Notes under the pieces: generated by a model | Database searches by the model: none | What the model was told of the DNA's origin: nothing | The model's input: the letters and a program-made list of their open reading frames with translations, nothing else | Assembly: GCF_016906535.1 (NCBI RefSeq) | Contig: NC_057376.1 | Location: forward strand, 1,550,001 to 1,614,000 | Reading direction: 5' to 3' | Origin: Rhizoctonia solani | Taxonomy: Eukaryota; Basidiomycota; Agaricomycetes; Cantharellales; Ceratobasidiaceae | Length of the DNA stretch: 64,000 nt | Position numbers and translations under genes: made by a program | Shown here: one piece after another, positions 7,968-55,234 of the stretch | Numbering within the stretch: the first letter of the stretch is position 1 | Layout: the number at the start of each line of letters is the position of its first letter

Positions 7968-8415
7968 TGTCATGACCTTCATTGGCATGACATGATTTTT
8001 TACTATTTTCTACCTTTTTTCTGAGACAGTTTCCTTTTTTGGTATATATTTATGACTCATCAAGATCACGTGACATATTTGATATAGGATGTGAAATTGT
8101 AAATGACTCACTATTTAGTACTGTTGTTTTTGATGTGGCTTTCCTCATGTATATAAGCCAGGTCAAGTCGCCGCTAAACAGCAAGACTTGACCTCTTTGT
8201 CAATTCACCTCAACTTTTAACTATCCCTTGCCCAAGCCCCTAGTTGGCTAAGTGCACGTTACTTAAGAATCATAACCCTAGGCCCTCGTCGCCTCTCTAC
8301 CCTTATCCATAACCCCTGGGCCCTTGTCGCCCCTCTACCTGTCTCATAGTCCATTGGTGATAGTGCCACGGACTTTAAGCCCCCTTGAACCATAGGTCCA
8401 AGCTGAGTCGTGACA
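7968..8415 (+). repeat. 5' LTR of element C
   Basis: TGTCATGACC to AGTCGTGACA, 448 bp. It differs from the 3' LTR at GATATAGGA/GATATATGA and at three TCG/TTG sites. It contains a TATATAAG box at 8150 and a 10-bp dyad (AGGTCAAGTC at 8160-8169, GACTTGACCT at 8185-8194). Confidence 0.95.
8150..8194 (+). promoter_or_regulatory. element C promoter and presumed RNA 5' end / self-primer
   Basis: TATATAAG lies at 8150-8157. AAGACTTGACCT at 8183-8194 starts 33 nt after the first T of the TATA box, a normal TATA-to-start spacing, and is the exact reverse complement of the 12 nt at 8418-8429. In Tf1-type elements the first bases of the transcript anneal to such a site. The start site itself is inferred. 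Confidence 0.65.
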
Positions 8416-8417
8416 CT

Positions 8418-8429
8418 AGGTCAAGTCTT
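8418..8429 (+). promoter_or_regulatory. primer binding site of element C (self-priming type)
   Basis: AGGTCAAGTCTT begins 2 nt after the 5' LTR. It lacks the TGG that pairs with a tRNA CCA end, and instead complements AAGACTTGACCT in the LTR over 12 of 12 bases. Confidence 0.75.
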
Positions 8430-9423
8430 TCCTACTCGTACTCTTGTCAACAAACAAGACCTACGCTTGGATAAGCACCAAAGCTTGAAAGGACATCGCA
8501 TTGTAGCCCCTGTGTAATAATCAAAGACAGGAATACGAGTGTCAGTAAAGCCGCGGGATAGCCCCTTGCTAGCAATTGTCCGCATACCAGGGTGTCCGCA
8601 CCTTTAGTCATACGCTGTTAGTCAGCTGAACCTCCGCTTACAAAAACCCTGACTAATATCACGCTTGTACACAGCTGCTGATTTTAGTAAAAGGATTGTT
8701 TAACGCTAGTGGGGAAGCAAACAGTTAGTAGTTTGAACTATAAACCCGTTTATCTATCTGATCGAGTACCAATTTATATCGGGAACGCATTCTAGTGTTC
8801 AATTTTCTAGATCTTGTCCTCTTTGCCATCTTTTGGCCCTATTCCATTGTCACCCGCTATCTCTACCTCGAAAAAACCATCAACAACATCAATCACGTGC
8901 TAGTCGGTCGCATTAATAATCTTGAAGAACACATTGCTCGTATTGAGGAACCAGGGCTAGTCCAAACAATAGCCCATATCAAACACCACAAGTCCTTTGC
9001 CAAGCGCCTCAATAATATACAAGGCAGATATTCAAGAACAAAAAAACCTTATTGCCAATCTTGAATCCCACAATTGAGATCTAGCTCTCACAATCAAAGA
9101 GCAAGAAAGGCGCATTGAGGAAAAAGACCAACTATTGGTGGAAAAAGAGCTAGAATTAGATAACTTCCATTGCTCCATTCAGGATATCACCCAAGACGGA
9201 AAAGGGAGAATCCATTACTACAAAGAATATGAGTTTTTTGCAGTCTCATATGACAATGCCTGGTTTGGGCGTGATGGGAGAGACTAGTCTGATTCCCTCC
9301 CAAACCCAATCGGGGTGGTCAGCCCCATCCTCTCGAACACATACTCCTGCTCCTGCGGCTGTGCCGCCCCATGTATATTCCCCTATGTCCTTTGACCACA
9401 TGTCTGATTGAGAATTATTAAAT
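8430..9423 (+). other. element C leader with a degraded upstream reading frame
   Basis: An open frame from 8795 to 9064 has a hydrophobic start (LVLFAIFWPYSIV) followed by a charged, coiled-coil-like stretch (LEEHIARIEE). After shifts of frame it continues as more charged sequence and a Ser/Pro-rich stretch (9229-9411, with SGWSAPSSRTHTPAP). That last part is in the gag frame, separated from the gag Met at 9424 by a TGA at 9409-9411. Either gag once started further upstream or this is a separate decayed leader protein. The elements' leaders elsewhere in the window do not show it. I assign no function. Confidence 0.42.
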
Positions 9424-12320: not shown

Positions 12321-12340
12321 GGAGTAAGGCACTTGGCTGT

Positions 12341-15300
12341 ATGCTTGCGGATTTGCATTATGAGAACAATGATTTTGAAATACTTTCCTTATGTAATACA
12401 TCTCAAATATACGCATCATTCTCTGCAAATCCGTGTGAAACTCCTAAATCCCAAAAATCAAGTTTTTTGGCTAAACCTTTTCAAGGAAAAGCCATGATTG
12501 ACTCTGGAGCAACTTCTTGTTTCATCCACCCCCTTTTAGTAGAAACATATCAACTTCCAACCTATATACATCCAATTCCCAAAAAACTACGCGTTATTGA
12601 TGGCCGAGAAATTGATTCTGGCCAAATCACTCATTTTACTTGGTTTAAATGTACCATTGGCAACCACACCAAAGAACTAGAGTGCCATATTTCCAATATT
12701 GGCAACCATCAATTAGTTTTAGGGATGTCGTGGCTGAAAAAGCATAATCCCCAAATATCATGGGAAAAACATACACTTGTTTTCAACTCGTTATATTGTT
12801 CCAATAATTGCCTATCCATACCTGCTGTGTTAGAACTCAAAGCAATAGAAGAAATCCCCGCTCCTTACCAAGAATTCTCTAGAGTATTTTCAGAAGAAGA
12901 ATTGTCCCAGTTGCCACCCCACCGTCCTTACAATATTGCCATTGAGTTACTCCCTGACGCAAAACCCCAACATGGCCCCATATATAGTCTAGGCCCCAGG
13001 GAAGATGCTGAACTTAGAGAAACTATTGAAAAGCAGCTGAAAGCGGGTTTGATTTGTCCATCCAAATCTCCCATGGCTTCTCCAATATTATTTGTCAAAA
13101 AGAAAAACGGAAAATTACGCATGTGTGTAGATTATCGACAATTAAACAGCATGACCAAGAAGAACGCCTATCCCCTGCCTTTACCACAAAATCTTATTGA
13201 GAAACTACAAGGTGCTAAGATTTTCAGTAAATTTGATCTCAAGGCAGGATACAATTTAGTTAGAATCAAGGAAGGCAATGAATGGAAAACCGCTTTCAAA
13301 ACTAAATACGGATTATTCGAATACTTGGTTATGCCTTTTGGATTGACAAATGCGCCAGCGGCTTTTCAAGACATGATGAATGAAATATTCCGGGATCTTT
13401 TGGATGTTTATGTCATCATTTACTTAGACGACATTCTAGTTTTCTCTCTAAATGAAAAGGATCATGAAACCCATGTACGGGAAGTGCTCAAGAGACTACA
13501 GGACAACAACCTTTTCTGCAATATTGAAAAATGCCATTTCCACGCCAAGAAAATCAATTACTTAGGGTTTATTATATCCAAATTTGGCATAGAAGTAGAT
13601 CAGTCTAAAGTTACAGACGCTATGAACTGGTCAACACCTAAGAATGTCAAGAACATCCAAGAATTCTTAGGATTTGTAAACTTTTATAGGCGATTTATCC
13701 CTAATTTTGGCAACATGGCACGGCCTTTGTATAATTTGCTCAAGAAAGACAGTCAATGGAAATGGGAACAAGCAGAACAGCAATCCTTTGATAATCTGAA
13801 GAAATGCCTTACATCAGCCCCCCTCCTTTTACAACCAGATACAACAAAACAATTCTACGTAGAATGCAATGCATCCAATTATGCAACAGGAGCCATACTA
13901 TCCCAACGCAATTCTGAAGAAAAATTGGCCCCTGTGGCATACTTGTCAAAATCCCTGTCCCCGGCTGAGAAAAACTACAATATTTTCGACAAGGAATTAC
14001 TAGTGGTCATTAGGGCATTTAAGGAATGGCGCCATTTACTGGAAGGATCAGAGTTACCAGTCCAAGTTCTGACAGATCATAAGAATTTGGAATACTTTTC
14101 TACGTCACAATCCCTGAACAAACGTCAAATTTGATGGGCAAATTTCCTAGTAGACTACAATTTCCAAATCATCTACAGACCAGGAGCACAAAATAAGAAG
14201 GCAGATATCCTCTCTAGACGCTATGATCTAGTACCCCTTGAAGGGGGGGTAGAGAACCAAGTTCTCTTGAAACCAGAACTTTTCATCTCATCAATCACCC
14301 CAGATCAGGAAATTAACGACCTGATTGGTGAAGCAATCTATGAGGATGAGCGTCTTAAAGAGATCTTGTACAAGCTCCAGAACAAGAATAAAGTAGTCGA
14401 CTGGGAGTTAAAAGAGGGATTACTATGGTTTCAAGGGAAAATATTTGTACCTAAGGATGATACTATCAGGAACCTTATTCTAGAGTCCAGACATGACGCT
14501 TTAGCAGCAGGGCATCCAGGACAGGCCAGAACATTGGAACTTGTCTCCCAAAATTATTACTGGCCTTCCCTGAAGAAATTTGTCAACTCTTATGTCAACC
14601 ATTGTGAAACCTGCATTCGGTCCAAACCTACAAATCAAGTACCTATAGGTCTATTAAAGCCATTACAAATTCCTGAACGTCCTTGGGAAGATATAGCATA
14701 CAATATGATTGTAGGATTACCAGTATCAGAAGGGTTTGACACTATCCTCACTGTCATTGACCGGTTCTCAAAAATGGTACATTTCATTCCCACTCAATCC
14801 ACAGCGTCTGCTATCGACATTGCCAATTTGTTCATCACATACGTATGGAAATTACACGGTCTACCTAGGAGTACAGTCTCAGATAGAGGTCCCACTTTTA
14901 ATGCCAAGTTCATTTGTCACTTATATAAAAGGTTGGACATCAAGCCCACATACTCTACAGCCTACCATCCGCAAACAGATGGGCAGACAGAACGGATACA
15001 AAGAGAGGCTGAAATCTTCATTCGAATGTTTGGGAATCACCAACAATTGGACTGGGTATCATTACTCCCTATAGCCGAGTTTGCCCTTAATAACTTAAAG
15101 CAATCTTCCACGGGTAAATCCCCTTTCCAAATATGTTACGGAGTAAATCCACAATTCTCTGTGGGTCAAAAATCAGATGAATCCGTTCCCAATGCAGACG
15201 AACATGCAGAATTCCTGGAAAAAGGCTACGATGAAGTCAAAGCATCACTCTCATTGTCACAAGAAAGGATGAAACATTTCTACGACCAACGTCACAGGGA

Positions 15301-15760
15301 GGAAGAAGAAATTCAAGTAGGAGATAAGGTCTGGTTAAGCCATCAAAATATATCCACCAACAGACCGTCCATTAAACTTAGCCATAAAAAGTTAGGACCC
15401 TACTTAGTAATTGAAAAAATTGGTTTGCATGCGTATAAATTACAACTACCCCATACTATGCGCATACATCCAGTCTTTCATATCAATCTTCTAACAAAGT
15501 TCCACCCCAATCCTCACGGACGTGATCCTCCTCAACCTGCACCAATCATCACAGAAGAAGGTGAAGAGGAATATGAAGTAGAAAAAATCCTAGATAGCAA
15601 GTGGAAAGGACGAGGGAAAACAAAGAAGTTATGGTACCTGGTCAAATGGAAAGGATATGATGAAGGAAGTAATTCATGGGAGCCAATAGACAATGTGGGA
15701 AATGCTCAAGAAATCCTAGAAGAATTTCACAAGGAACACCCTGACGCAGTTGGAGCTTGA
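12341..15760 (+). pseudogene. pol: element C pol: protease, RT, RNase H, integrase, chromodomain, one in-frame stop
   Basis: One frame of about 1,139 codons, broken only by a TGA at 14132-14134. Order: aspartic protease with DSGATSC (near 12500); RT with FVKKKNGKLRMCVDYR, the [13 protein letters not shown] block and the catalytic YLDD (near 13425); RNase H (YVECNASNYATGAIL, FDKELLV, DHKNLEYF); integrase zinc finger (H...H...C..C, 14490-14620); DDE core with SDRGPTFNAKF and [11 protein letters not shown]; and a C-terminal chromodomain (LVKWKGYDEGSNSWEP, near 15640), which in this clade guides integration to chromatin marks. At the TGA site the 3 kb copy reads AGA and element E has an Arg codon (AGG), so this is a point mutation. 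The chosen ATG lies 20 bp after the gag stop; a gag-pol fusion by recoding is also possible. Confidence 0.94.
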
Positions 15761-15770
15761 AGAGGGGTAA
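15761..15770 (+). promoter_or_regulatory. polypurine tract of element C
   Basis: AGAGGGGTAA immediately precedes the 3' LTR and overlaps the region just after the pol stop. The same position in the copies at 4813-4825 and 20278-20290 (minus strand) is also purine-rich. It is the expected plus-strand primer. Confidence 0.65.
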
Positions 15771-16218
15771 TGTCATGACCTTCATTGGCATGACATGATT
15801 TTTTACTATTTTCTACCTTTTTTCTGAGACAGTTTCCTTTTTTGGTATATATTTATGACTCATCAAGATCACGTGACATATTTGATATATGATGTGAAAT
15901 TGTAAATGACTCACTATTTAGTACTGTTGTTTTTGATGTGGCTTTCCTCATGTATATAAGCCAGGTCAAGTTGCCGCTAAACAGCAAGACTTGACCTCTT
16001 TGTCAATTCACCTCAACTTTTAACTATCCCTTGCCCAAGCCCCTAGTTGGCTAAGTGCACGTTACTTAAGAATCATAACCCTAGGCCCTTGTTGCCTCTC
16101 TACCCTTATCCATAACCCCTGGGCCCTTGTCGCCCCTCTACCTGTCTCATAGTCCATTGGTGATAGTGCCACGGACTTTAAGCCCCCTTGAACCATAGGT
16201 CCAAGCTGAGTCGTGACA
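15771..16218 (+). repeat. 3' LTR of element C
   Basis: TGTCATGACC to AGTCGTGACA, 448 bp, same length as the 5' LTR, followed by the TSD copy CTACC. Confidence 0.95.
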
Positions 16219-25951: not shown

Positions 25952-26664
25952 TGTCAGAGCCGACAACTACCAAAGAGGTAAAACCTAACAAGCTATTGCC
26001 TAATATAGGACTTATCAGCTAGTAGGGCCTAACAGAGCTCAAGGGCAATGCCAGGAAGGGGTAGGACAAGACCTAATGTCATAAACAGAGGAAAATAGAA
26101 CTAGCCGGAATTGAACCAGCTTGACCACTAAGCCATAGAGCCCTATTATTCCTCTGCTGACAACCCATGATTACACCTGCTACCCCCCAAATTTGGGCTT
26201 GGGCCAGCATGCAACCACTTGTACTGGTCATGTGACTGTGTCCAGGACACCTAATATAGTTAAGTGCACTATGCTATAAAGATAGCAGGGCTAAAGACCT
26301 TTGACAGGGACTGGTATGCTCTCAGGCAATACTCTTAATTGTATGTCTTAGGGTAGGTAGTGGTGGAAGGGGATAAGAGGTTGAGTTCTGAGGCTTAAGG
26401 CTCTCAGAACCCTCCTTATATTCACAGAGAAGGGGAAGAGTAATTACATGTACAAACATCATAACAAAGATAAGGTCACATGACCAGAGATAAGAAAACA
26501 AGATCACATGACTAAAGGTCATGTGATGAGATTACATAATAAGCGCTCAGCGCCTAAATAGCATAAAGATGCATATATCCATAAATCTTCATGAAAATAG
26601 CGCATATATCACTATTTCTTCGACTTAGTGGATTTTAAGGTGGTCACGCCTCTAGGGCATGACA
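25952..26664 (-). repeat. 3' LTR of element E, with a mini-LTR inside
   Basis: Plus-strand ends TGTCAGAGCC and AGGGCATGACA. Without the mini-LTR at 26077-26249 and one TSD copy it is 535 bp, against 538 bp for the 5' LTR. The minus-strand polypurine tract (complement of CTTCCCCCCCGTT) adjoins at 26665. Confidence 0.93.
26077..26249 (-). repeat. solo 173-bp mini-LTR, TSD CCTAA
   Basis: TGTCATAAACAG to GTCCAGGACA, flanked by CCTAA at 26072-26076 and 26250-26254. The sister LTR of element E (near 32113) has the uninterrupted site with a single CCTAA, which proves the insertion boundaries and order. On the minus strand it holds box A-like TGGCTTAGTGG and box B-like GGTTCAATTCC. Confidence 0.88.
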
Positions 26665-26675
26665 CTTCCCCCCCG

Positions 26676-29600
26676 TTAAGGTCCAGCTGCCTCTGGATAT
26701 TCACAGTGAAACTTAGCCAATTTTTCAGGGGCATTGGCTAAGTGGGCCTTGGGCTCCCATGTGTTATCCTCTGGTCCATACCCTTTCCATTTAACCAAGT
26801 ATTTGACTTGTCGACCCACTTTCTTGGAGTCTAGGATCCTTTCAACAGTATATTCCTCTTCTCCATCAGCTGTGACAACTGGGGGGAGTGGGACTGGATC
26901 ACGGTCATACTCGTCTACTGGCTTTTTGTGTAATAGGGCAATGTTGAAGACAGGATGGACTTTCATGGATTTAGGGAGATCCAGTTTATAAGAGTTCCTG
27001 CCAATTTTCTCCAAGACCTTGTAGGGCCCCAATTGCTTATGTTCTAGCTTATGGAAGGCCTTGAAGTTTTGATGTTGGCACTACTCAAATAAACTTTATC
27101 ACCAACTTCCAGCTTGGTTGCTTCCCTTCTGTTTAAATCATAGTATTGCGCATTTTGTCTTGCAGCAATTTCTAAAGCAGCTTTTGCTTCAGTTTGGATT
27201 TCTTTCAGGAAGTCTGCTAGGTTGTCGGCTTGGGGGACATGGCTTTCCTTGGTATTTCCAACTGTGAAGTCTGGATTATAACCATAGCACATGTAGAAGG
27301 GAGAGTGTTTGGAGCCTGAGTGTTTCCCATTATTGTATGCAAATTCTGCAAGTGGTAGTGATGCAACCCAGTCTGTTTGTCTATAGTTGATGTAGTGGCG
27401 TAGGTAAATTTCCACAAACTGGTTTAAGCGTTCACTTTGTCCATCAACTTGTGGTCTGTATGCAGTGGAGAAATGTGGTTCTATCCCCAACCACTTGTAG
27501 ACTTGTCTCAGGAATTTTGCATTAAATTGGGGGCCTCGGTCCGAAATGGTTTTCCTGGGTAACCCATGTAACTTCCACACAAAGGATACAAAGAGGTTTG
27601 CAACATCAACAGCAGTAGCATCAGAGTGCGTTGGTATAAAATGAACCATTTTGGATAATTGGTCCACTACTGTTAATATTGCATCATATCCTTCTGAGGT
27701 GGGGAGTCCTACAATCAAGTCATACGTTATTTCCTCCCAGGGCTTATTGGGTAAATCTATGTTTTGAAGGAGACCTTCAGGAGCCCGGTTGGAGTGTTTT
27801 CTACGTATGCATGAATCGCATGCTTGGACATATTTTGTTACAGATTGTTTCATCCCTGACCAGTAGTAATCCCTTGAAAGGAGGTCTAGGGTTCTGAACT
27901 GTCCTGGGTGCCCAGTAGAAGGGTTATCATGCCTGCTTTCTAAGATGGCTTTCCTGATTTCTGGCTCATTAGGGACATAAATCCGGTCATGATAGTAGAG
28001 TAAGCCATTATCAAGTTTCCATCCTTTAACGGGTATGTCCTCTTCCAAGGATTTAAGGATTTTGTATACAGCTTTATCATCATGCAGAGCGTCCCTTATT
28101 AGATCATTAAGGTCACTATCTGTTTGAATAGCTGCAATAAAAAGCTCTGGGCTTATGAGCACAGGGGTTTCACCCCCCTCTTTAACCGCAGACTTGTGGT
28201 CTTCACGTCGAGAGAGAATATCTGCTTTTCTATTCTGTGCGCCCGGCCTATACACAATCCTATAGTTGTAATCTGCCAAAAATCCCATCCACCTTAACTG
28301 CCTTTGGTTCAGATCCCTTTTTGTCTGGAAGTACTCCAGATTTTTATGGTCTGTCAGTATTTTGACAGGGATTACTGTTCCTTCCAGCAGGTGACGCCAT
28401 TCCTTTAAAGCCCTTACTACTGCTAGTAACTCTTTATCAAAGATATCATAGTTTCTTTCAGCAGGTGCTAGGGATTTTGATAGGAATGCAACCGGGTGTA
28501 ATTTATCATCACTGCCCTTTTGATTAAGGACAGCGCCCGTTGCAAAATCAGAGGCGTCACACTCAAGGAAAAACTCCTTGTATGGATTGGGTTGGATTAA
28601 GACAGGGGATTCAATTAGAGCCTGTTTAAGAGCTTTAAAAGACACTTCTTGGCGTTCACCCCATTCCCAAGGTATATTCTTTTGGAGTAGTTGGTATAAG
28701 GGTTGTGCCAATTTTGAGAAGTTATGTATGAAGCGCCTATAGAACTTTATAAAGCCCAAAAACTCTTGAACCCCTTTGACAGAGCGCGGTGTTGCCCAAT
28801 CAACCGCTTGAGTGATTTTCTTGGGATCTGCTTTCACTCCTTCACCATTGGCAATGACACCAAGGTAATCTACTTCAGATGCATAGAAATTACACTTCTC
28901 CAGGTTACAGTAGCATGCATTGTCTTGCAGCCTTTTCAGTACCTCTTGGAGATGTTTTGTGTGTAATTCCCTGCTTTCTGAGAATATTAGGATGTTGTCT
29001 AGATATACTACTACATAGACGTCCAATATGTCCCTAAATATCTCATTCATGAAGTGCTGAAATGCAGCAGGAGCGTTGCATAACCCAAAGGGCATGACTA
29101 GGTATTCAAACAGGCCATATTTGGTTTTAAACGCAGTCTTCCATTCATCACCTTCCTTTATCCGGACCAAGTTATATCCAGATTTCAGGTCAATGGTGGA
29201 AAAGTATTTTGCGCCCTTAGTTTCTCAATGAGAGACTGTATTAGAGGTAGAGGGTACGCATTCTTGACTGTATTTGCATTTAGGGATCTATAATCCACAA
29301 CCATACGCCTTTTCCCATTTTTCTTGTTGACAAAGTGAACTGGGGAACCATATTTGGACTTGGATGGGCAAATCAATCCTTTGTCCAATTGTTCTTTAAG
29401 GAGTTTTCTAAGTTCCTCATCATCAGATGCCTTCAAGGGGTATACCATAGCCTTAACAGGTTTATCAGGATCGATTAAATCAATCCCTAAATCAAAAGGA
29501 CGGTGCGGAGGCAGTTCCGTCACCTTCATGTCCTCAGAAAATACCTCCGCAAAATTGCGCAGTTCTACTGGGATACTTTCAAGTGGAGAATCCACAGTAC

Positions 29601-30213
29601 CTCCAGTTTCCCTAGGGATGCCTTCAAGAGGTTCAATTACCTCAACACCTCCTAAGTCTTCTGGTATGCCTTCAAGGTGGTTAGAAGTCCCACCAACATT
29701 TCCCAGGATAGAATTAGAAACAGAAAGACAAGTATTGTTACAATATTGAGAATTAAAAGTAATATGCTTATTAGGCCAGTCTATAGTAGGGTTGTGTAAC
29801 TTGAGCCAGGACATTCCAAGGACTATGCTATGTTTACCTATATCAGCTACGTTACATTTCAGAACCTCTTTATGACTACCTAATTCTAAAGTAAATATAC
29901 ATTCTGAATCTACCAAACCAGAACTAATGTCTCTTCCATCAATCACTTTAAGGCGACGTGGTACAGACTTTTTTGTAGTAGGTATACCATATTGTTTGAT
30001 CAAGTCCTTGTGTATAAGCAAGATGATGCACCTGAATCAATCATAGCCCATCCAAAGAAGGGCTTCATTTTCTTGGTAACCTTAGGGTTGGGAACTTGTT
30101 GAACGCAAGATGCTTGAAAATATATATTTAAAGGAGATATATTATTTACAGAAAAGATTTCCAAGCTATCTAAATGTCCATTATTTCCCTCTGATACACT
30201 GTTCCCATTAGTG
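26676..30213 (-). pseudogene. pol: element E pol: protease, RT, RNase H, integrase, chromodomain, frameshifted
   Basis: Order on the minus strand: protease with MIDSGASSC (near 30040) and IVLGMSWL; RT with FVNKKNGKRRMVVDYR, VMPFGLCNAPAAFQHF and the YLDN/ILIF catalytic block (near 29000; the usual YLDD reads YLDN); RNase H (LECDASDFATGAVL, FDKELLAVV, DHKNLEYF); integrase with H...H...C..C, SDRGPQFNAKF and YRPQVDGQSE; a C-terminal chromodomain (LVKWKGYGPEDNTWEP). The frame breaks at about 30018 (after DSGASS), 29205 (in EKLR-AKYF) and 27050 (in SRPSI-KLEH). Each looks like loss of one base. The last D of YLDD reading N would also impair catalysis. Confidence 0.92.
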
Positions 30214-30214
30214 T

Positions 30215-31552
30215 TCAGAGGTCCCCATTTTCCAACTCATCCTCAGAGATATGGGCCTCATGGCCAGAGTAGGATTTTGAGGGGCATTGATTGGCATAGT
30301 GTCCCCTACCTCCACATGTTGCGCATATAATAGGTTTTTTGCCTTTTGAGGAGGCAGAGTCTAAGTCCATAGGGGAAGGACCAGAGTTGCGCGCAGAGGA
30401 GGAGGAAGAAGCCTTGGGAGCAGGAGTGGAGGTGGCAGTGACTGGGTGGTTATCCTTTTTAAGAGATTTAAAGGTAACATCCATGGTGGTGCCATCATTC
30501 CATTTGACAATTGGAACTGCTATTCCCTTGGCATTTTGGCCAACCTTTTGTAGAACCCCCTTCTTAGCCTTTCCATCCACAATCGCATACACTTGTTCCC
30601 CAACAGACAGTTTATCCCTGGGCGCTCCCTGGGCTGCTGCTGACGTAGAAGTGCTGGATTTGCTTCCAGATTGGTTTGAAGAGGAAGAGGGACGCTTGTG
30701 CTGGGCCGCAAACTGCTCTAGGCGTTGATCCACCTTAAGGGCCTTCTCTGCAAGAGTTGCAAGAGTTACAGAGGCATCTGCATGGTCATAATCTTGAACC
30801 ATGAGAGTTTCCTTAATTTTGTGGGATAAGCCATCATAGAACATATCCCTGAGAGAGGGGTCGTTGTAGCCAAGACCTTGAGAATAGGTCTGGAAGTCCT
30901 TGTAATAATCTTGGACTCCCTTGGTTTGTTTGAGGGTGCGCAACTTGGCGCGGAAGTTCTCTGTCCTATTTTGGACATTCCAGCGTGCATTGAATTGCAG
31001 CCAGAAGGCATCCAGATTGTGGAGCCAAGAAACAGGGTTCCCTTTAACAACGTCCTCTTCCAGGTAGGGCTCAAGCCACTCATGGGCCTTGCCATCCAGG
31101 CAGGAGATAATGAAGGCGATTTGCTCATCCACCGTTGAGCCAGGATATGAGATCCTGAGATAATGAGAAACAGCAACTCTGAAAGAGATTGCCTTATTTT
31201 TGTCTGACCCATCAAATTTGTCTGGCGTCGCAAGTTTAGGAGCCTTGGTAGCCAAGGCAAGGGAGGAACCAGAAGCAGCAGCGGTGCCAATTTTGGCAAT
31301 ATCAGCCCCTAGTTTAACAATGAGGGCGTCAAGGTTGGTGATGCTACTATCATGGTTGTTGAGGGTAGCCTGAGTGGTGCCAATGTCTGTATGGTGGGCA
31401 GCCGCTTGTCCTATGACCAAGGATAGATTTTGGTTCATAGCCAGGAGGAGGTTTTTGATCTCCTGGGCCCACGCAGGTATCTCCTGGATATTGGTGGGGA
31501 CTGACAGCGCATTGGGGTTGGCATGCACATAGGTGGAAGGTTGGGTAGACAT
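30215..31552 (-). CDS. gag: element E Gag polyprotein
   Basis: An intact 445-codon frame. Residues 1-105 are Ala/Asn/Thr-rich with a helical stretch. The capsid region (about 110-250) has TPDKFDGSDKNKAISF, FIISCLDGKAHEWLEPYL and LRDMFYDGLSHKIKETL, parallel to element C gag. A basic Ser-rich linker follows, then GEQVYAIVDGKAKKG, also conserved in element C. The nucleocapsid zinc knuckle CATCGGRGHYANQC lies near residue 410. It would form particles and bind element RNA. The ATG at 31552 follows a 432-bp leader, and no earlier in-frame Met is evident. Pol lies downstream in a different frame with no obvious start codon, so recoding or a lost start is likely. Confidence 0.92.
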   Translation of the reverse strand: MSTQPSTYVHANPNALSVPTNIQEIPAWAQEIKNLLLAMNQNLSLVIGQAAAHHTDIGTTQATLNNHDSSITNLDALIVKLGADIAKIGTAAASGSSLALATKAPKLATPDKFDGSDKNKAISFRVAVSHYLRISYPGSTVDEQIAFIISCLDGKAHEWLEPYLEEDVVKGNPVSWLHNLDAFWLQFNARWNVQNRTENFRAKLRTLKQTKGVQDYYKDFQTYSQGLGYNDPSLRDMFYDGLSHKIKETLMVQDYDHADASVTLATLAEKALKVDQRLEQFAAQHKRPSSSSNQSGSKSSTSTSAAAQGAPRDKLSVGEQVYAIVDGKAKKGVLQKVGQNAKGIAVPIVKWNDGTTMDVTFKSLKKDNHPVTATSTPAPKASSSSSARNSGPSPMDLDSASSKGKKPIICATCGGRGHYANQCPSKSYSGHEAHISEDELENGDL

Positions 31553-31984
31553 GGTGGAGAAGGAGGGATATGATAGATACTAAGTAGCGTCCTTGCTAAA
31601 TAAGGCAACTTCACTACTAGTTTAGGAATAAGGGGAGGCTAGATGATTGGCCCCACTAAGCTCACAGTTTATTCTTTACGCTAATCACTGTCTCAATACC
31701 TAGCGTTGAATGCTCCTTACAACTGATCAACAAGCCTTGGATGGGCGTGATACAGTAGCAGGTTTTGCACAAGCGGGTCTTTGACTGTCTGTGACGCAGA
31801 AGAAGTCATGGCAGACTTTTGGGTGGACGTTCGCAATGCTAGCCGTGTAACAATAACCCCCTAGTGCAACAATCACCAGTTTTGACTATTATCTGGCTAT
31901 GCTGGATCACTGGTTCTTGATGGGTCGTGCCAGTACTAACACCCTAGTTGTCCACAAGGGTTGGTGATGAAGAACTCAACCTAA
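31553..31984 (-). promoter_or_regulatory. element E leader with self-primer binding site
   Basis: On the plus strand AGAACTCAACCT lies at 31971-31982, 2 bp from the 5' LTR edge at 31985. Its exact complement AGGTTGAGTTCT occurs in the 5' LTR at 32233-32244, 33 nt from the TATA box (TTATATA at 32271-32277, read on the minus strand). This is a 12 of 12 match. The rest of the leader is non-coding. Confidence 0.7.
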
Positions 31985-32522
31985 TGTCAGAGCCAACAAC
32001 TACCAAAGAGGTAAAACCTAACAAGCTATTGCCTAATATAGGACTTATCAGCTAGTAGGGCCTAACAGAGCTCAAGGGCAATGCCAGGAAGGGGTAGGAC
32101 AAGACCTAATATAGTTAAGTGCACTATGCTATAAAGATAGCAGGGCTAAAGACCTTTGACAGGGACTGGTATGCTCTCAGGCAATACTCTTAATTGTATG
32201 TCTTAGGGTAGGTAGTGGTGGAAGGGGATAAGAGGTTGAGTTCTGAGGCTTAAGGCTCTCAGAACCCTCCTTATATATTCACAGAGAAGGGGAAGAGTAA
32301 TTACATGTACAAACATCATAACAAAGATAAGGTCACATGACCAGAGATAAGAAAACAAGATCACATGACTAAAGGTCATGTGATGAGATTACATAATAAG
32401 CGCTCAGCGCCTAAATAGCATAAAGATGCATATATCCATAAATCTTCATGAAAATAGCGCATATATTCACTATTTCTTCGACTTAGTGGATTTTAAGGTG
32501 GTCACGCCTCTAGGGCATGACA
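31985..32522 (-). repeat. 5' LTR of element E
   Basis: 538 bp, TGTCAGAGCC to GGGCATGACA on the plus strand, followed by CCCCT. Carries the intact CCTAA site that is filled by the mini-LTR in the other LTR. Confidence 0.94.
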
Positions 32523-34381: not shown

Positions 34382-35458
34382 TGTGACAACCTCCTAACAT
34401 ATACCACTGGAATTGCCTCTTTTTTCTAATATTTTTAGTATTTTTTCCAATCACATGACCTTGGCACTTACTATGCCAAGATGCCATGCCAGGGGCGCTT
34501 AGGAGAAATCCACGCTTATGCGCAGCCTGCAGCATGCCTCTTATTTTACTTGTACACTTCTTTTCTGTTGTACACCACTGTAAGGTGGGTACTTGCTAGT
34601 GAGGCAGGCGCTTGTGGCCGTACTACTACTACACTGCTTATGTAATCTAACTATCTAAGCCTTATACTACTGTCACGTAAGGCAACCTACTGCTAACTAC
34701 TGTTGACAAAGGGGCCTTAGGCCTGGGAGGTGTGGTGAGCACTAGTAAAGGGGTTAACTTCTGAAGTACTGGGGGGCCAGCTACTTAGCTGGCTGGGGTG
34801 CCTCCTCAATGGATATGAGACAAGGTAAAATTGACTTGGGGTCTCCAAGTGATTTTCCTGCTGTATATATAGACATAAGGGCGCTATTTACATGGTCTGT
34901 GTGTGTGAGAAAAGAAGTGTACAAAATGAAAAAGAAGAATGCTGCAGGCTGCGCAGAAGTGTGGATGTTTCCTAAGCGCCCTTGGCACAGCATCTTGGCA
35001 TAATAAGCGCCAAGGTCACATGATCAAAAAACACAAGATATTGAGTCCGTAAAAATACTAACAATAATAGAAAAATTGTCCAATTCCAATGATATAGTTC
35101 TCAAGGGTGTAACATTTTCTCACACACACATGGACCACTTGTAGATAGTCTCTATTGTTATATAAACAGCAGGAAAATTGCTTGGAGACCCCAAGTTGAT
35201 TTTACCTTGTCTACCATCCAAGACAGGTTTCAGAAGTACCAGCTAAGTAGCTGGTTATCAGTAGTCACCCCATTACCTCTATATATTAACTCACCACACC
35301 TCCCAGGCCTCAGGCCCCTTCATCACCAGTAGATAGTAGTAGGTTGCCTTAAGCAACATTAGTATAGCCTTTAGAGTAGATTACATAAGCAGTGTCTGTA
35401 GTACAGCCACAAGTGCCTGCCCTATTAGCAAGTACCCACCTTACAGTGTTGTACAACA
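34382..35458 (+). repeat. solo LTR type B split by another B LTR, TSD CTAAT
   Basis: TGTGACAACCTCC at 34382 to TTGTACAACA at 35458, with CTAAT at 34377-34381 and 35459-35463. Own sequence: 34382-34565 and 35115-35458. Confidence 0.87.
34566..35114 (-). repeat. solo LTR type B (minus strand), nested, TSD TTTTC
   Basis: TGTTGTACACCACTG to GGGTGTAACA, 549 bp, flanked by TTTTC at 34561-34565 and 35115-35119. Confidence 0.9.
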
Positions 35459-35511
35459 CTAATGAAGAGGGTTGATAAGAGGTAGACTGGGAGCAATAAG
35501 TTCATACCATT

Positions 35512-36124
35512 TGTCCTGGACATGGTCACATGACCAGTACAAGTGGTTGCATGCTGGCTGTCATAAACAGAGGAAAATAGAACTAGCCGGAATTGAACCA
35601 GCTTGACCACTAAGCCATAGAGCCCTATTATTCCTCTGCTGACAACCCATGATTACACCTGCTACCCCCCAAATTTGGGCTTGGGCCAGCATGCAACCAC
35701 TTGTACTGGTCATGTGACCGTGTCCAGGACACTGCCCCCCTTTTTTGGGTGGGCGGCGCCCCTGTGAAAAGTTTTTCCCATGGTGGGAATAGAACTGGTG
35801 TCCTTCCAAGTTCTACCAAGTGTCATAAACAGAGGAAAATAGAACTAGCTGGAATTGAACCAGCTTGACCACTAAGCCATAGAGCCCTATTATTCCTCTG
35901 CTGACAACCCATGATTACACCTGCTACCCCCCAAATTTGGGCTTGGGCCAGCATGCAACCACTTGTACTGGTCATGTGACCATGTCCAGGACACTGGCCC
36001 AAGCCCAAATTTGGGGGGTAGCAGGTGTAATCATGGGTTGTCAGCAGAGGAATTATAGGGCTCTATGGCTTAGTGGTCAAGCTGGTTCAATTCCAGCTAG
36101 TTCTATTTTCCTCTGTTTATGACA
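35512..36124 (+). repeat. solo 173-bp mini-LTR, split by a full mini-element, TSD CCATT
   Basis: TGTCCTGGACATGG at 35512 to TGTTTATGACA at 36124, flanked by CCATT at 35507-35511 and 36125-36129. Its own pieces (35512-35558 and 35999-36124) add up to exactly 173 bp once the 435-bp insert and one CTGGC copy are removed. The plus strand carries GGGCTCTATGGCTTAGTGG and GGTTCAATTCC. Confidence 0.9.
35559..35993 (-). mobile_element. complete 435-bp miniature LTR retroelement (TRIM-like), TSD CTGGC
   Basis: Two 173-bp direct repeats (35559-35731 and 35821-35993, two differences) flank 89 bp (35732-35820). CTGGC lies at 35554-35558 and 35994-35998. Minus-strand reading: LTR (TGTCCTGG to TTATGACA), CTTGGTAGAACTTGG as possible primer site, a hairpin (TAGAAC...GTTCTA), then the polypurine tract AAAAAAGGGGGGCAG touching the 3' LTR. 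No protein can be encoded, so it must move with enzymes of another element. Near its 3' end the LTR has a tRNA-like module: box A TGGCTTAGTGG in a D-arm-like hairpin (GCTT/AAGC) and box B GGTTCAATTCC in a T-arm-like hairpin (CTGG/CCGG), with no anticodon arm between. The size and coding-free structure fit TRIM/SMART elements. The tRNA-like part is unusual. Confidence 0.9.
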
Positions 36125-36253
36125 CCATTTCTCAGGTCAGAGGTATTTATGAACTGGCCACATAACAAGTGTCTTAAGGTCTGGTGGCAGCAGCTGGCAA
36201 GCTTAGGGGGGTATGATATTTTATTCCATTTACACAGTCCACTATATTACATT
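36125..36253. other. unassigned sequence left of the D LTR
   Basis: Low-copy sequence that continues at 37709 across the D LTR (TSD ACATT). No gene recognised. Confidence 0.3.
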
Positions 36254-39972: not shown

Positions 39973-42900
39973 ATGACCAGCTTTAGTCGAGCTTTGAGCC
40001 TTGCCGCTCTGTGGCTGATTTCGGACTCTTTTTCACCAGTCGTTCAGGCCCAGAACATATCCTGGCAAGCACTGCCCTTCAGTCCTCCAAATTTTCCTCT
40101 GGCTGTCAAGTCTCCATATACATCAGGATGGTTCAGGGGATACGATAAAGAACTAGCAAAACAACCATCCGAATTTGGAACTGGAATGGTACGCAAAATA
40201 GTCTTTCTTTATATTTTCTTAGTTCAGCTGACCGAGAGGACTTGAAAACATTTGCAGACTCTGGGCTGGGTATGCTATGTTAAAGTCGACAATACGACCT
40301 ACAAGGCCATAGGTGAGCGAGGTGCTAATAATGATACCGTCCAGACACAAGCACAGGTGAGTTGACGCAAGAAAACCCCACGGTTTCGAGTATGAATTGG
40401 GTTTGGATTCTAGTTTACACCCACGCGGACGATCATCGATTCGCGTGCTGGTCCAGTTGATCTTGTTATCACGTTTTTGAGCGCTCTTGATGTGAGTATC
40501 ATTTTGGTTTTCGCGATCGCCCGCCAGCTAGGCAGCTGACGGGTGAAAAGACGAATGATTTGGTCCGTTTATCGCTTCCTTTCTCATATTTATCCGTCTC
40601 TGCTGTCTCCAATGATGGGGGGAGCCATGCTGTATCGGTGAGTTAATCAGAGTCTACATCTGATGATGTGCTTGGTACATACTGAGGCTTTGATCCTATA
40701 TTGATATTAGGTGTACAATGATATCAGTGGGAGTGGGTTCAGTTATATCACAGGACAGAAATGGACGCTTACCTCTGCTTGTACTAGAGTGGATTACTTC
40801 CGACACTGGCGATCCGGCAGTATGGTCGACTGATGCCAACGGAAGCATTCTCATTCACCAAATGTCACTTCGAAACCCTAGTCCATATTGGGAGCTTCAG
40901 CAACGCGCTCAATGGGGGGCTGTGTACCTGGCTGCTAACCGCGTAGGCTCATGGCATTCTGTCTCCCTGGGTACCTACTCATGCTTTTTAAATATATATT
41001 TTCAGACCAGCGGTACCACTTGGCAAACTGGCGCAGAAGCTACCGTTCGAAGCACCTTCATCAAGTCAGGTACCTTGCCTAATACTTTAGATGCCGATTT
41101 TCGTGGAGTCAATGATACGTGGCCCATCATGGCGATCGCGCAGGACTTGGGTGCTGTTACCACGCAGGCACAAGTAGTAACATTCACGGTTGGACATTCG
41201 AGAGACCCTGCAGTGAAGTACTTTTCAGAGGCTGGTGAGCAAGCACGAAGCCTGTACTTTCGATCCAAGTTCAGTTCCGAGGTAGACGCTGTGAGCTGAG
41301 ATGACGAACACTTGTAAGAGCTCCCTCCCCTGAGATATATTTCATAGGTTCGTTATGCGGTATCCGACTACCACAATGCAAGTGCTGCATCTACCGAGTT
41401 CGACAACAGGATCCAGAACGATGCAGCCAGATACTCTCCCGACTACGCCTCTGTTGTTGCCTTGGCCACCCGACAGGCTTTTGCCAGCATCGAGATCACG
41501 CTCAACGGGACTGGCCCTGCTGCTGACCTACAGGACATCAAGCTGTTCACAAAGGATGCCGCCGTAGATGACACAGGTGTTGGCAGTGAGTAGTCGACTC
41601 GTTCGATCTGATGGATGACGCTGAAGCTGGCGGACAGGGGATGGGGTGCTCTCGTCTGTAGACTCGCTGTACTCGATCATGCCAATGCTGATATACACGA
41701 ACCCGAACCTGGGTAACTATGCGCTTGCCTCGTTCTTTGAGTACCCACAGACCCGTGAACAGACATATGCACTCCACGACCTCGGTTCCCGCTACTCGTG
41801 GGTGTTGAGGCATGACGGGCAACGCCGAAACCCGGTAGATGGTGAGCTATGGTCAACTAGGCTGTATGCAATTGCTGACAGGAGCACCATGGGTACGGCA
41901 GCAACGGCAAACATGATCATCATGACGTACGCCTTCATGAGGTACACTGGCGACGCAAAGCTCGCAGCAAAGCATGTACGTCGAACTACTGGATGTGTGA
42001 GACGACGTGGCTGACAGGGGTGTGAAGTACTACACACTCAAGGCATGGGCTGACTATCTGGTCAGCAACGCGTTGGTACACTCAGATCAGTAAGCTGATG
42101 TTATGACTAGAGCTGAATGGGAGCTGAGCAGAGGTATACTGGCAGGCTGACCGGGGACTGGTTCATGACGACGGGTGTTTCGAACCAGACGAACCTTGCG
42201 CTCAAGGGACTGATTGCGCTGAAGGTGAGCAGATTCAGACCGGGCGAGCGGAGTGGAAGATAGCTGAGCGGAGGACGCAGAGCATGGTGGAGATACAGGA
42301 TGCAGTGGGGATGAGCAATGAATCGTCGACGTATGAGGTGAGGTGGATGAAGAAGGTGAATGCGGGTGGCAGAGCTGAACGAGGATGGGCAGAATGCGGC
42401 AAAGTCTGGACTGGAACAATGGATGGAGCTGAGCAAGTTGGGGACGAAGTTCAGATACGAGTCGAGCAGCGAGCAGCCGCAGCTGCTGCATGGGCTGTAT
42501 GCTGACAAGATACTTGGGCTGAACTTTGTACCCGAGAGTGTTTATGCTGCTCAGAGAACACAATGGGCTACGGGCACAAGTACGTTGACTATACCTACAT
42601 AAAAGCTGTATCTGACTTCTTAATTCAGAATCCTTTGGGGTGCCTTTCAACGAGCAGTACTCTATTACCAGCATTCCTTGGCAGTATTTCACTCTGGCTG
42701 CCATGATCACTGGAGATACAAGTCTCCTTAATAGCGCTCCGTTCGCACCAATCAAGAACTTTGCTTCCAAGGCACAGAACAAGATCTATGGCCTGGCCGA
42801 TGTATATGATACCATTGCAGGGGTTGCCAGTCCGGGTTACGGGCTGAGAGGCAATGTTGGAGGCTCCTATGCGCTTCTAGCCCTTGGGTAAGCGTATGAT

Positions 42901-45984: not shown

Positions 45985-48900
45985 GCACTCCATTGATCAA
46001 AGGCAAATGCTATATGCAGCAAATAACTCAACACAGAGCCAGTATTACTACGTATCTGCATACAGTTACCATGAGGTATTTGAGGATCTACAAGGACAGG
46101 AAGGTTGATATCAATAAAAATCAAGCTATAGGTTGTTAAGCAAAGATTATATCAAAACAGAATCCTGCTAGATCTACCATGTTGTGTGTAAAGAGAAACA
46201 GTGGGCTCTATGACCACAGGGACAATGCTACTGGGCAAAGAGGAGGTTAGGTATGTAATCTAATGGCTTGGGTACTGAAAAATCCCCTGAACACATCTTC
46301 TTAAGATCAGAATGAAAGAACACATCATTTGTGAATTTAGCATTGTAAATTGATACACAAAATACAACTGCATAAGAAGATAATGTGGGCAACATCAAGC
46401 TATCTGCCCAAAATAGAAAAAAGAGCAAACCAAAACAATGAAAGGTGTTAAAAAAGTCAGAAACTGAACATGCATGGCAGTAAAATCAACATGAGGGGTA
46501 GGTATATGTCAGCCGCGCCTGTGGTAATCCGCATTCAGCTATATGGCATTGTAAATAAGGCCGTTGGTGCAACGTACCCCATCTAGTCAAAGATGCCTTC
46601 GATGAATTGGCACTACTGGACGGCGTTGCAGTAGGGGGCGGTGGAGACGGGGAGGCTGGCACTTGCGTAATTGTCTTGTTTGGCGTCCTGAGTGGATCCC
46701 GTGTCATCCTTAAGCTCTTGGAAAGGCTAAGTTATCATACGCTTACCCAAGGGCTAGAAGCGCATAGGAGCCTCCAACATTGCCTCTCAGCCCGTAACCC
46801 GGACTGGCAACCCCTGCAATGGTATCATATACATCGGCCAGGCCATAGATCTTGTTCTGTGCCTTGGAAGCAAAGTTCTTGATTGGTGCGAACGGAGCGC
46901 TATTAAGGAGACTTGTATCTCCAGTGATCATGGCAGCCAGAGTGAAATACTGCCAAGGAATGCTGGTAATAGAGTACTGCTCGTTGAAAGGCACCCCAAA
47001 GGATTCTGAATTAAGAAGTCAGATACAGCTTTTATGTAGGTATAGTCAACGTACTTGTGCCCGTAGCCCATTGTGTTCTCTGAGCAGCATAAACACTCTC
47101 GGGTACAAAGTTCAGCCCAAGTATCTTGTCAGCATACAGCCCATGCAGCAGCTGCGGCTGCTCGCTGCTCGACTCGTATCTGAACTTCGTCCCCAACTTG
47201 CTCAGCTCCATCCATTGTTCCAGTCCAGACTTTGCCGCATTCTGCCCATCCTCGTTCAGCTCTGCCACCCGCATTCACCTTCTTCATCCACCTCACCTCA
47301 TACGTCGACGATTCATTGCTCATCCCCACTGCATCCTGTATCTCCACCATGCTCTGCGTCCTCCGCTCAGCTATCTTCCACTCCGCTCGCCCGGTCTGAA
47401 TCTGCTCACCTTCAGCGCAATCAGTCCCTTGAGCGCAAGGTTCGTCTGGTTCGAAACACCCGTCGTCATGAACCAGTCCCCGGTCAGCCTGCCAGTGTGC
47501 CTCCACTTAGCTCCCACTCAGCTCCGGTCGTACCATCAGCTTACTGATCTGAGTGTGCCAACGCGTTCTTCACCAGATAGTCAGCCCATGCCTTGAGTGT
47601 GTAGTACTTCACACCCCTGTCAGCCACATCGTCTCACACATCCAGCAGCTCGACGTACATGCTTTGCTGCGAGCTTTGCGTCGCCAGTGTACCTCATGAA
47701 GGCGTACGTCATGATGATCATGTTTGCCGTTGCTGGCACACGCACAGTGCTCCTGTCAGCGACCACATACAGCATAGTTAAACATTGAACATATCTCACC
47801 ATCTACCGGGTTCCGGTATTGCCTTTCATGCGTCAATACTCGCGGGTAGTATAGACCAAGGTCGTGGAGTGCATACGACTGTGCACGAGTCTGCGGGTAA
47901 TCGAAGAACGAGGCAAGCGCATAGTTGCCCAGGTTCGGGTTTGTGTAGATCAGCATTGGCATGATCGAGTACAGCGAGTCTACAGACGAGAACACCCCAT
48001 CCCCTGTCCGCCGGCTTCAGCGCCATGAATTTTGCCGAATGGGTTGAGTACTCACTGCTATCCCCTATGTCGTTTACTGCGGCATCCTTTGTGAACAGCT
48101 TGATGTCCTGTAGGTCAGCAGCAGGGCCAGTCCCGTTGAGCGTGATCTCGATGCTGGCAAAAGCCTGTCGAGTGGCCAAGGCAACAACAGAGGCGTAGTC
48201 GGGAGAGTATCTGGCTGCATCGTTCTGGATCCTGTTGTCGAACTCGATAGATGCAGCACGTGCATTGTCGTAGTCGTAGACCGCATAACGAACCTATGAA
48301 ATATATCTCAGGGGAGGGAGCTCTTACAAGTGTTCGTCATCTCAGCTCACAGCGTCTACCTCGGAACTGAACTTGGATCGAAAGTACAGGCTTCGTGCTT
48401 GCACACCAGCCTCTGAAAAGTACTTCACTGCAGGGTCTCTCGAATGTCCAAGCGCGAATATTACTACTTGTGCCTGCGTGGCAATGTCACCCAAGTCTTG
48501 CGCGATCGCCATGGTGGGCCACCTATCGCCGACTCCACGAAAATCAGTATCTAAAGTATTAGTCAAGGTACCAGACTTGATGAAGGTGCTTCGAACGTTA
48601 ATTTCTACGCCAGTTTGCCAAGTGGTACCGCTGGTCTGAATATATATATATAAAGCATGATTAGGTACCCGGGCAGACAGAATGCCATGAGCCTACGCGG
48701 TTAGCAGCCAGGTACACAGTTCCCCACTGAGCGCGTTGCTGGGCCTCCGAATATGGGCGAGGGTTTTGAAGTGATATTTGATGAATGAGAATGCTTCCGT
48801 TGGCATCAGTCGACCATACTGCCGGATCGCCAGTGTCAGAAGTAATCCACCCTAGTACAAGCAGAAGTAAGCGTCCACTTTTGCCTTGTGATATAACTGA

Positions 48901-53490: not shown

Positions 53491-55234
53491 ATGAGCGGAC
53501 ATCTGAGGCTCACGGGCCATCGACGCTCTAGCTCGCCCATATCCGCGTACTCAGACAATTTTGAGCTTATGCAGCCGCGACCACCCTCGATTGGCGCGAG
53601 AATACGCAACGTTACACGGTCCCTGAGACGCTCGAGGAACATACTGGTTGCTCTAGGGGTTTTTCTATTTGTTGGATTTTACCTGTTTAGTTATGGCGGC
53701 GATGGCGACGAAATTATTGCTCCTCCTCCTCCTTCGAATGAAATACTTCCCGGCCGACGCGACTTCAAGGACTACGAGGAAAGAATGCGGAATATGCCTC
53801 AGCATAATCCCGATTTGCCCCCGCCTGCTGGTCGAAATGGCCGTTATGTCCGCTTTCGAAATCAGGTTTATGGACTTGGGTTGGTATTTCCATTTCATTA
53901 TTATCTTGTGTTATTTACTTACGTTTATCTGCACAGCTGGAATAATATTCTTCAGGAGATGTGAGTGTACAGGTTGTAGCGCCGGGTGGTTACTTATAGT
54001 CACACAGCTTGCTTAATACCCACGTAGCGCACAAAGCGGGGCGCGCTTATGTCCATATACCCTTCCATGCAGCAGCCCACCCAGCAATGGGTCTTGGCTC
54101 AAAAGCACCCTGGATACCTCTTAACGCATTTATGGATGCACCCACTGCGGGTATGCTCATTCGACGAAGACCAGTCAAGCACGATTGAATTAATGTGTTT
54201 CTGTCATAGGTGGTGTCTGGCCAGGAGGAGACCCCACACCCCGCGCAGTGTCTGAGGAGTGGTATGATACGATTTGTCCCAAGGGGGATCGTGTTGTATT
54301 GGATACGGAAAAAGTGGCAGGGCACTTGAAGGAGTCGGACGCGCAAACTCTTATCGATTTTTGGGCCCAAAAGCTCAAGGATATGGACGATAAATGTGTT
54401 GAAATAGATGGACGAGAGCAGGTGTTCAATTTCTAGTAAGTTGTTTACTGTGGCATATACGAGTCTCTAATGCAATACTCGTAGCCTCACTGGTTCGACC
54501 CGCGTTTTGTCCGCTTTTGATGAATTCTCCAAATCAGCAACCATGCAAATGCTCAAATGGTCCGACCTCGTCGTCGGAGCTGTCAAACGAAACTTTGCAC
54601 TGATTAGTCCAGTGAAACAGCGCAATTCTCGGCCGTTGATTTTCTACCCTGAAGGAAAGATCGAAGGTCTCCTCGCGATGCATGTCCGACGAGGCGATTA
54701 CTCCTACCACTGCACGCATTTCGCGAATTGGTCGTCTACATACACGTCATGGGCACTCTTGCCCCAACTGCCCGACGCCTTTAAAATTCCTGAGGGGGCT
54801 GGAGGCGGACAAGCTACACCCGAAGCCGTGGCGGAATATCATCGCGTATGCTGGCCTACTAATGCGCAGATTGTCGAGCGTGCTCGGCTGATGCGCAAGT
54901 TGCACCCCGGCCTGGATAGAATATACATCCTCACAAATGGCAAACCGGATTATTTGGCGAAGCTCAAGGAGGATTTGAGAGCTGATGGGTGGAAAAAGTT
55001 GTCTACGAGCCAGGATATGACGTTGAATTGGCAAGAGATGTGGGTTTCGCAGAGCATAGATATGTCTATTGCTCAGAGGGCTGAGGTGTTTATTGGGAAT
55101 GGGGTGAGTTATTCCTCATTTTTGTATTGTGCCGTTCGCTCATTGTCCACCACCAGTTCTCGACATTATCAAGCAACGTCGCGATGTTGAGGTTATCAAG
55201 AGGTCTTCCTTTCAACTCGGTACGATTCTGGTAG
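53491..55234 (+). CDS. O-fucosyltransferase-like type II membrane protein, copy 2
   Basis: ATG at 53491. An Arg/Ser-rich cytosolic tail is followed by a membrane segment (ILVALGVFLFVGFYLFSYG) and a proline-rich stem (IIAPPPPSNEILP). The domain starts at NGRYVRFRNQVYGLG and is split by short introns as in copy 1: WNNILQEM; AHKAGRAYVHIPFH; a GT after ACTGCGG near 54149; GGVWPGGDPTPRAVSEEW to FNF; YLTGSTRVLSAF through the motif AMHVRRGDY; YILTNGKPDYLAKL; RAEVFIGNG; and a final exon FSTLSSNVAMLRLSRG ending NSVRFW with TAG at 55232-55234. Shared intron positions show that the pair arose by duplication. The role in protein O-fucosylation is inferred from the fold. Confidence 0.84.

Follow-up and report, generated by a model that had tools for sequence, protein, structure and literature searches.

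A coding-free two-LTR element lies within an older solo LTR

The window, the whole stretch of DNA that was analyzed, spans 64,000 nucleotides (nt) of the Rhizoctonia solani genome (C7:1550001-1614000). At positions 35559-35993, it contains a coding-free element of 435 bp that is bounded by two long terminal repeats (LTRs), lies in the minus orientation, and has TG...CA ends. No open reading frame (ORF) of at least 150 amino acids (aa) overlaps it. The first-pass annotation had assigned to this locus the anatomy of a TRIM, and its components, i.e., the direct repeats, the ends, the 89-bp interior, the polypurine tract, and the CTGGC target duplication, were all recovered:

35554..35558, no strand: left copy of the target duplication CTGGC
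35559..35731, minus strand: 3′ LTR, 173 bp, differing from the 5′ LTR at two positions
35732..35820, minus strand: interior, 89 bp, without coding capacity
35732..35746, minus strand: polypurine tract AAAAAAGGGGGGCAG, adjoining the 3′ LTR at 35731/35732
35801..35820, minus strand: presumed primer-binding region beside the 5′ LTR, assigned by its position
35821..35993, minus strand: 5′ LTR, 173 bp
35994..35998, no strand: right copy of the target duplication CTGGC
35512..35558, plus strand: older solo LTR from the TRIM family, first piece (LTR positions 1-47)
35994..36124, plus strand: second piece of the older solo LTR (LTR positions 43-173)
26077..26249, minus strand: another solo LTR of the TRIM family, with the duplication CCTAA, within a Ty3/Gypsy LTR

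Since the polypurine tract and the promoter-like boxes described below are both on the minus strand, the element is minus oriented and its 5′ LTR is the copy at 35821-35993. A length below 1,000 bp, two LTRs with their TG...CA ends, a polypurine tract at the 3′ end of the interior, and constant short duplications are the features by which TRIMs are recognized, and each of them is found here. The element split a solo LTR that belongs to the same family but is older, lies on the opposite strand, and has its own duplication, CCATT. Rfam microRNA matches at 35897-36041 reflect these two opposite-strand LTRs and were rejected.

Several other repeats were observed in the window. A Ty3/Gypsy element at 25952-32522 (minus strand; 5-bp duplication CCCCT) has one of its LTRs interrupted by the solo LTR at 26077-26249, and a second Ty3/Gypsy element, with LTRs that are 99% identical and the duplication CTACC, lies at 7968-16218 (plus strand). 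A near-identical 231-aa ORF occurs at 42087-42782 (minus strand) and 46852-47547 (plus strand), which suggests an inverted duplication. Segments 41120-42589 and 61070-62538 form a direct repeat of approximately 1.47 kb (85% identical, 20 kb apart), and an ORF within the 61070-62538 copy matches a glutaminase A domain. The window also contains a host gene at 54507-55187, for which the top match, with 87% identity, is in Ceratobasidium sp. 423.

The family inserts like an LTR retrotransposon and was recently active

We scanned the genome (40,703,773 bases in 16 contigs) for further members of the family. The 89-bp interior is present in 24 copies, all of which were scored. Segments of 29 bp taken from U3, the boxes, and the LTR end yielded 334, 314, and 312 genomic matches, respectively, with at most three mismatches, and the reversed control of each segment yielded 0. 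Solo or broken LTRs therefore far outnumber two-LTR copies. Furthermore, the box segment does not outnumber U3, and thus there is no sign that the promoter-like module spreads apart from the LTR.

Two-LTR copies that align end to end contain 22 of the 24 interiors. Flanks are common within each of two pairs of these copies, L070/L072 (C10 with C7) and L080/L082 (the two ends of C10), which identifies them as duplicated genome segments; the 22 copies hence represent 20 insertions. Exact 5-bp duplications border 20 of the 22 copies, corresponding to 18 of the 20 separate insertions. The same was true for 20 of 25 solo LTRs (27 had been labeled solo, but L091 and L092 were dropped as parts of truncated or damaged two-LTR copies) and for 22 of 40 further LTR pieces, a set that includes several truncated pieces, two already among the 25 solo LTRs, and two with the same flanks. 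The two LTRs are identical in 13 of the 22 copies (11 of the 20 separate insertions) and differ at one or two positions in 5, while the remaining 4 pairs contain indels and were left out of the base-by-base comparison. Collectively, the exact 5-bp duplications and the identical LTR pairs reveal recent transposition of the LTR type, i.e., the family is inserted by an LTR-type integrase. It should be noted that the solo LTRs L012 and L030, located on different contigs, have a common right flank, AGAGGTAA, with a matching duplication in L012 only, possibly as a result of recombination between copies.

These data also bear on the reading of the locus as a SINE or tRNA pseudogene array that merely resembles an LTR element. 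Its small size and tRNA-like boxes are all that speaks for such an array, whereas the constant 5-bp duplications, which extend to the solo LTRs, the TG...CA ends, and the polypurine tract speak against it. The element lacks the hallmarks of SINEs, namely, absence of LTRs, duplications of variable length, and an A-rich or LINE-like tail. We consider this reading refuted in substance and its probability minimal. The earlier proposal of LTR-type rather than SINE-type insertion was thus borne out by the genome-wide copy count, which gave constant 5-bp duplications, the opposite of the variable-length ones that would contradict it.

The LTR carries tRNA-grade boxes A and B at an unusually short distance

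Boxes A and B, 7 nt apart, had been proposed to reside in the LTR:

35869..35879, minus strand: box A-like TGGCTTAGTGG in the 5′ LTR
35851..35861, minus strand: box B-like GGTTCAATTCC in the 5′ LTR, 7 bp after box A
35607..35617, minus strand: box A-like sequence in the 3′ LTR
35589..35599, minus strand: box B-like sequence in the 3′ LTR

When the LTR was scored with a matrix derived from host tRNA genes (box A, 20 distinct sequences; box B, 16 distinct sequences), the best A-B pair fell on exactly these positions, with 30.1 bits. None of 3,000 dinucleotide shuffles of the LTR reached this value (mean, 7.5 bits; maximum, 25.0 bits), and 43 distinct host tRNAs scored between 17.5 and 32.7 bits with the matrix, which was partly built from them. 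Because the score lies above all shuffles and the 29-mer across both boxes has 314 genomic matches versus 0 for its reversed control, the boxes are not a product of chance. By eye, the closest-looking host gene is that of tRNA-Thr (TGGCTCAGTGG versus TGGCTTAGTGG). The LTR was also said to have no TATA box, which holds in the strict sense only, as the AT-rich GGAATAATAGGG is located approximately 15 bp before box A.

In contrast to the boxes, the remainder of a tRNA is hardly recognizable. The Rfam tRNA model gave 21.9 bits on the older solo LTR, below the cut-off of 29, the 5′ LTR matched tRNA-Sec with only 14.7 bits, and the typical copy L069 had no tRNA match up to an E value of 10. We read a tRNA body that is mostly gone around intact boxes as a sign that the boxes may have been kept for use, although a recent deletion would look alike. 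In searches for an ancestral form, the genome contained no copy with exact TGGCTTAGTGG and GGTTCRATNCC 8 to 38 bp apart and no pair of TGGCNCAGTGG and GGTTCRANNCC 3 to 12 bp apart.

The gap between boxes A and B ranges from 31 to 106 in the host (18 distinct tRNA gene sequences in which both boxes could be parsed) and from 31 to 93 bp in yeast, where 32 bp is by far the commonest value (PMC11724288). The DNA-binding halves of TFIIIC were mapped approximately 168 Å apart on a gene with a 32-bp gap (PMC11724288). Judged from the sequence, Pol III transcription of the element is plausible: the quality of the boxes argues for it, while the 7-bp gap argues against an ordinary engagement of TFIIIC. 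The squeezed boxes could still work if TFIIIC engaged the 7-bp pair as it is or paired the box A in the 5′ LTR with the box B in the 3′ LTR, which are 269 bp apart by LTR positions; we regard this as rather improbable. Were the cross-LTR pairing true, only the two-LTR form, which is competent for transposition, would have a complete promoter, and solo LTRs would be silent.

CpG changes dominate the variation of the boxes

With an exact match to the final 29 bp of the LTR as an unbiased anchor, we examined 100 copies among the matches listed, from C1 to C6:900558. Among these matches, an exact U3 segment was present in 82 of the 100 copies and an exact box segment in 64. When CpG position 143 was disregarded, the box segment was intact in 85 of the 98 copies read, with two truncated ones counted as changed. 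The boxes thus show no extra conservation over the rest of the LTR, the CpG position aside. As the family is young and its copies are mostly dead, box conservation cannot gauge constraint. The LTR contains only two CpG sites, 12-13 and 143-144, and C143T, which hits the last base of box B, accounts for most of the box-segment changes in otherwise intact copies. Both sites are mutation hot spots (C to T and G to A, e.g., in L123-L149), which suggests CpG methylation as the underlying cause.

The last of these observations is relevant to the possibility that the boxes, mainly box B, bind TFIIIC without Pol III and have a role in chromatin or insertion instead of in transcribing the element. Such extra-TFIIIC sites, devoid of Pol III, have been described in several eukaryotes (PMC11724288), and an intact box B can in principle be bound alone. 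However, box A is equally intact, and many otherwise kept copies have lost the last C of box B through the CpG change. We consider this possibility unlikely.

The 3′ end of the LTR is predicted to form a stable fold

Compact D-arm and T-arm hairpins had been claimed at the two boxes. This claim needs correction, as the 31-nt box region alone folds like its shuffles (z, 0.14) and a D stem and a T stem placed by the cloverleaf scheme would overlap at LTR positions 130-131. A larger module was found instead:

35821..35908, minus strand: 88-nt module with a three-way junction in the 5′ LTR (RNA z, -6.26; DNA z, -6.15)
35559..35646, minus strand: 88-nt module with a three-way junction in the 3′ LTR (z, -6.36)

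The last 88 nt of the LTR have a predicted folding energy of -38.2 kcal/mol (z, -6.26), and 0 of 200 shuffles were as stable; the corresponding module of the older solo LTR has a z value of -6.05. The predicted fold consists of a long stem and two hairpins, one of them D-like and the other T-arm-like with a loop of 7 nt. It ends exactly at the terminal CA of the LTR and abuts the presumed primer-binding region. Covariation was analyzed in 33 distinct modules from 102 LTRs, after 6 truncated pieces of the 40 had been dropped. Over 35 pairs, there were 47 one-sided pair-keeping changes (25 of them at CpG positions 143/144), 0 two-sided changes, and 21 broken pairs, and covariation neither supports nor contradicts the fold.

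The fold is central to another explanation, in which the same TRIM would be transcribed by Pol II. The boxes would then be a relic whose Pol III activity was lost together with the anticodon arm, and the 88-nt folded RNA would be what matters, acting beside the primer-binding region in priming, packaging, or 3′-end formation. Retroviral U5 stems are somewhat similar to such a folded RNA beside the primer-binding region. In line with this explanation, the box gap is far below the known range, the AT-rich GGAATAATAGGG before box A could act in a TATA-like manner, and, apart from the boxes, no feature of the LTR departs further from random (z, -6.3) than the fold, which stops precisely where the LTR does. 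Against this explanation, covariation lends the fold no support, and a relic would not predict boxes of tRNA grade in surroundings where the rest of the tRNA is hardly recognizable, unless the loss was recent. Transcription by Pol II is a possibility to be taken seriously, at clearly less than even odds.

Primer and helper candidates

Helenus elements are TRIMs with tRNA-derived LTR sequence (Kojima 2024, PMC10886601). The primer-binding site of fungal Helenus typically fits the anticodon loop or the 3′ end of a tRNA and is shared with Copia elements, without being strictly defining (PMC10886601). For the Rhizoctonia family, unlike Helenus, neither a primer tRNA nor a helper sharing the primer-binding site was found. 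The tRNA sets used in the primer search comprised 34 and then 43 distinct sequences, with the initiator tRNA-Met not among the 43. The best tRNA complement in the first 30 nt of the interior, 9 nt matching the anticodon loop of tRNA-Gly(UCC), is located 10 nt from the LTR. This complement was rejected as evidence, as 19 of 200 shuffles reached it. A search of the host genome for a tRNA 3′ end fitting TGGTAGAACTT gave one match, which did not look like a tRNA, versus four control matches. Priming by the tRNA-like part of the element itself was likewise rejected; the 7-nt complement AGTTCTA/TAGAACT is, by a hand estimate, close to chance. For Helenus, no self-complementarity of this kind is reported (Kojima 2024, PMC10886601).

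The primer-binding region is not shared elsewhere in the genome beyond chance, as judged from searches with an 18-mer and a 16-mer. With up to two mismatches, the 18-mer matched 23 sites exactly, one family copy with two mismatches, and two other places with two mismatches (control, 0); the 16-mer gave 23 exact matches and 28 with two mismatches versus 33 for the reversed control. The Copia reverse transcriptase has 58 matches in the genome, 57 of them above the cut-off, and possible helpers of both kinds, Copia and Ty3/Gypsy, therefore exist. The polypurine end of the Ty3/Gypsy element at 25952-32522, GGGGGGGAAG followed by TGTC, resembles that of the TRIM, GGGGGGCAG followed by TGTC. Together with the 5-bp duplication, this may be taken as only a hint that Ty3/Gypsy serves as the helper, and it differs from fungal Helenus, for which the reported link is to Copia (PMC10886601).

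Relationship to known elements

The element had been described as a hybrid of SINE and LTR logic, which is a fair description but not a new principle, since Helenus elements combine the two and the term TRIMp3 has been coined for TRIMs with a Pol III promoter (Kojima 2024, PMC10886601). Helenus was reported as 113 families in rust fungi, with some members in Agaricus, Coprinopsis, and Amylostereum, and the fungal elements generate 5-bp duplications (PMC10886601). The Rhizoctonia family shares with Helenus the coding-free two-LTR structure below 1,000 bp, the polypurine tract, the 5-bp duplications, the many solo LTRs, and an LTR whose box A fits TRGCY...YGG and whose box B fits GGTTC. It appears to differ from Helenus in boxes that are 7 bp apart and leave no room for an anticodon arm and in an LTR that the tRNA model hardly recognizes.

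Cassandra of plants is likewise a TRIM with a Pol III-type internal promoter in the LTR (PMC10886601, PMC10853983). Its promoter, however, is 5S derived and its transcription has been shown (PMC10886601, PMC10853983), whereas the promoter of the Rhizoctonia element is tRNA-like and predicted only. The 5S sequence that marks Cassandra and Ajax was absent, as no 5S family was among the Rfam matches up to an E value of 10 over positions 35450-36200. Ordinary TRIMs and SMARTs are also short nonautonomous two-LTR elements with a polypurine tract and short duplications, but without a tRNA-like promoter in the LTR (PMC10886601). The tRNA-derived SINEs resemble the Rhizoctonia element in having tRNA-like boxes A and B as the likely promoter; unlike it, with its LTRs and constant 5-bp duplications, they have no LTRs and use target-primed reverse transcription.

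Neither Rhizoctonia nor Cantharellales appears in the main text of PMC10886601. Among the titles and abstract beginnings of the open-access papers listed, which are weak evidence of absence, only PMC10886601 describes tRNA-like LTRs, and none describes such a family in Rhizoctonia. In the Rhizoctonia genome paper (PMC7884421), the section on LTR retrotransposons makes no mention of TRIMs or of tRNA-like LTRs. On sequence grounds, this is a new, box-compressed, Helenus-like family, and what may be new about it is how close the boxes are and how large the fold is.

A proposed model of Pol III transcription

We give an even chance to the interpretation that the element is a young Helenus-like TRIM which has captured a tRNA D-arm/T-arm promoter part, depends on enzymes supplied by a helper, and uses TFIIIC and Pol III to produce its template RNA. 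The captured part would come from a tRNA or a tRNA-derived SINE and would lack the anticodon arm, and reverse transcriptase and integrase would be provided in trans by an autonomous LTR retrotransposon. The template RNA would most likely, though not certainly, be made by TFIIIC and Pol III. In Cassandra, the template RNA starts in the 5′ LTR and ends in the 3′ LTR (PMC10886601), and we borrowed this layout for our model. Two T runs are candidates for the sites at which Pol III could stop:

35836..35839, minus strand: TTTT after box B in the 5′ LTR (LTR positions 155-158), possible weak Pol III terminator
35574..35577, minus strand: TTTT after box B in the 3′ LTR (LTR position 155)

Transcription is predicted to start in the 5′ LTR, about 15 to 20 nt ahead of box A and near LTR positions 95-100. 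Pol III would then leak past the weak TTTT of the 5′ LTR and end at the hairpin-backed TTTT of the 3′ LTR, yielding an RNA of approximately 320 nt with an R region of approximately 60 nt. Downstream of 30 host tRNA genes, the first run of at least four T residues within 60 nt is T5 in 16 genes, T6 to T9 in 11, and T4 in 3. As only 3 of the 30 genes use T4 first, T4 is a weak terminator here. T4 is rarely the first terminator in yeast as well, where nearby RNA structure can turn weak T tracts into moderately efficient Pol III terminators (PMC9278858). The TTTT at LTR positions 155-158 lies just past the T-like hairpin, and premature termination could occur at the one in the 5′ LTR.

If this interpretation is correct, a young family in which many LTR pairs are identical would join the recently proposed TRIMs with Pol III promoters, in Cantharellales, and it would do so with a box spacing at which function would not be expected from current TFIIIC data. 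The Rhizoctonia family may thus provide a natural test of the limits of box compression and of whether Pol III transcribes Helenus at all.
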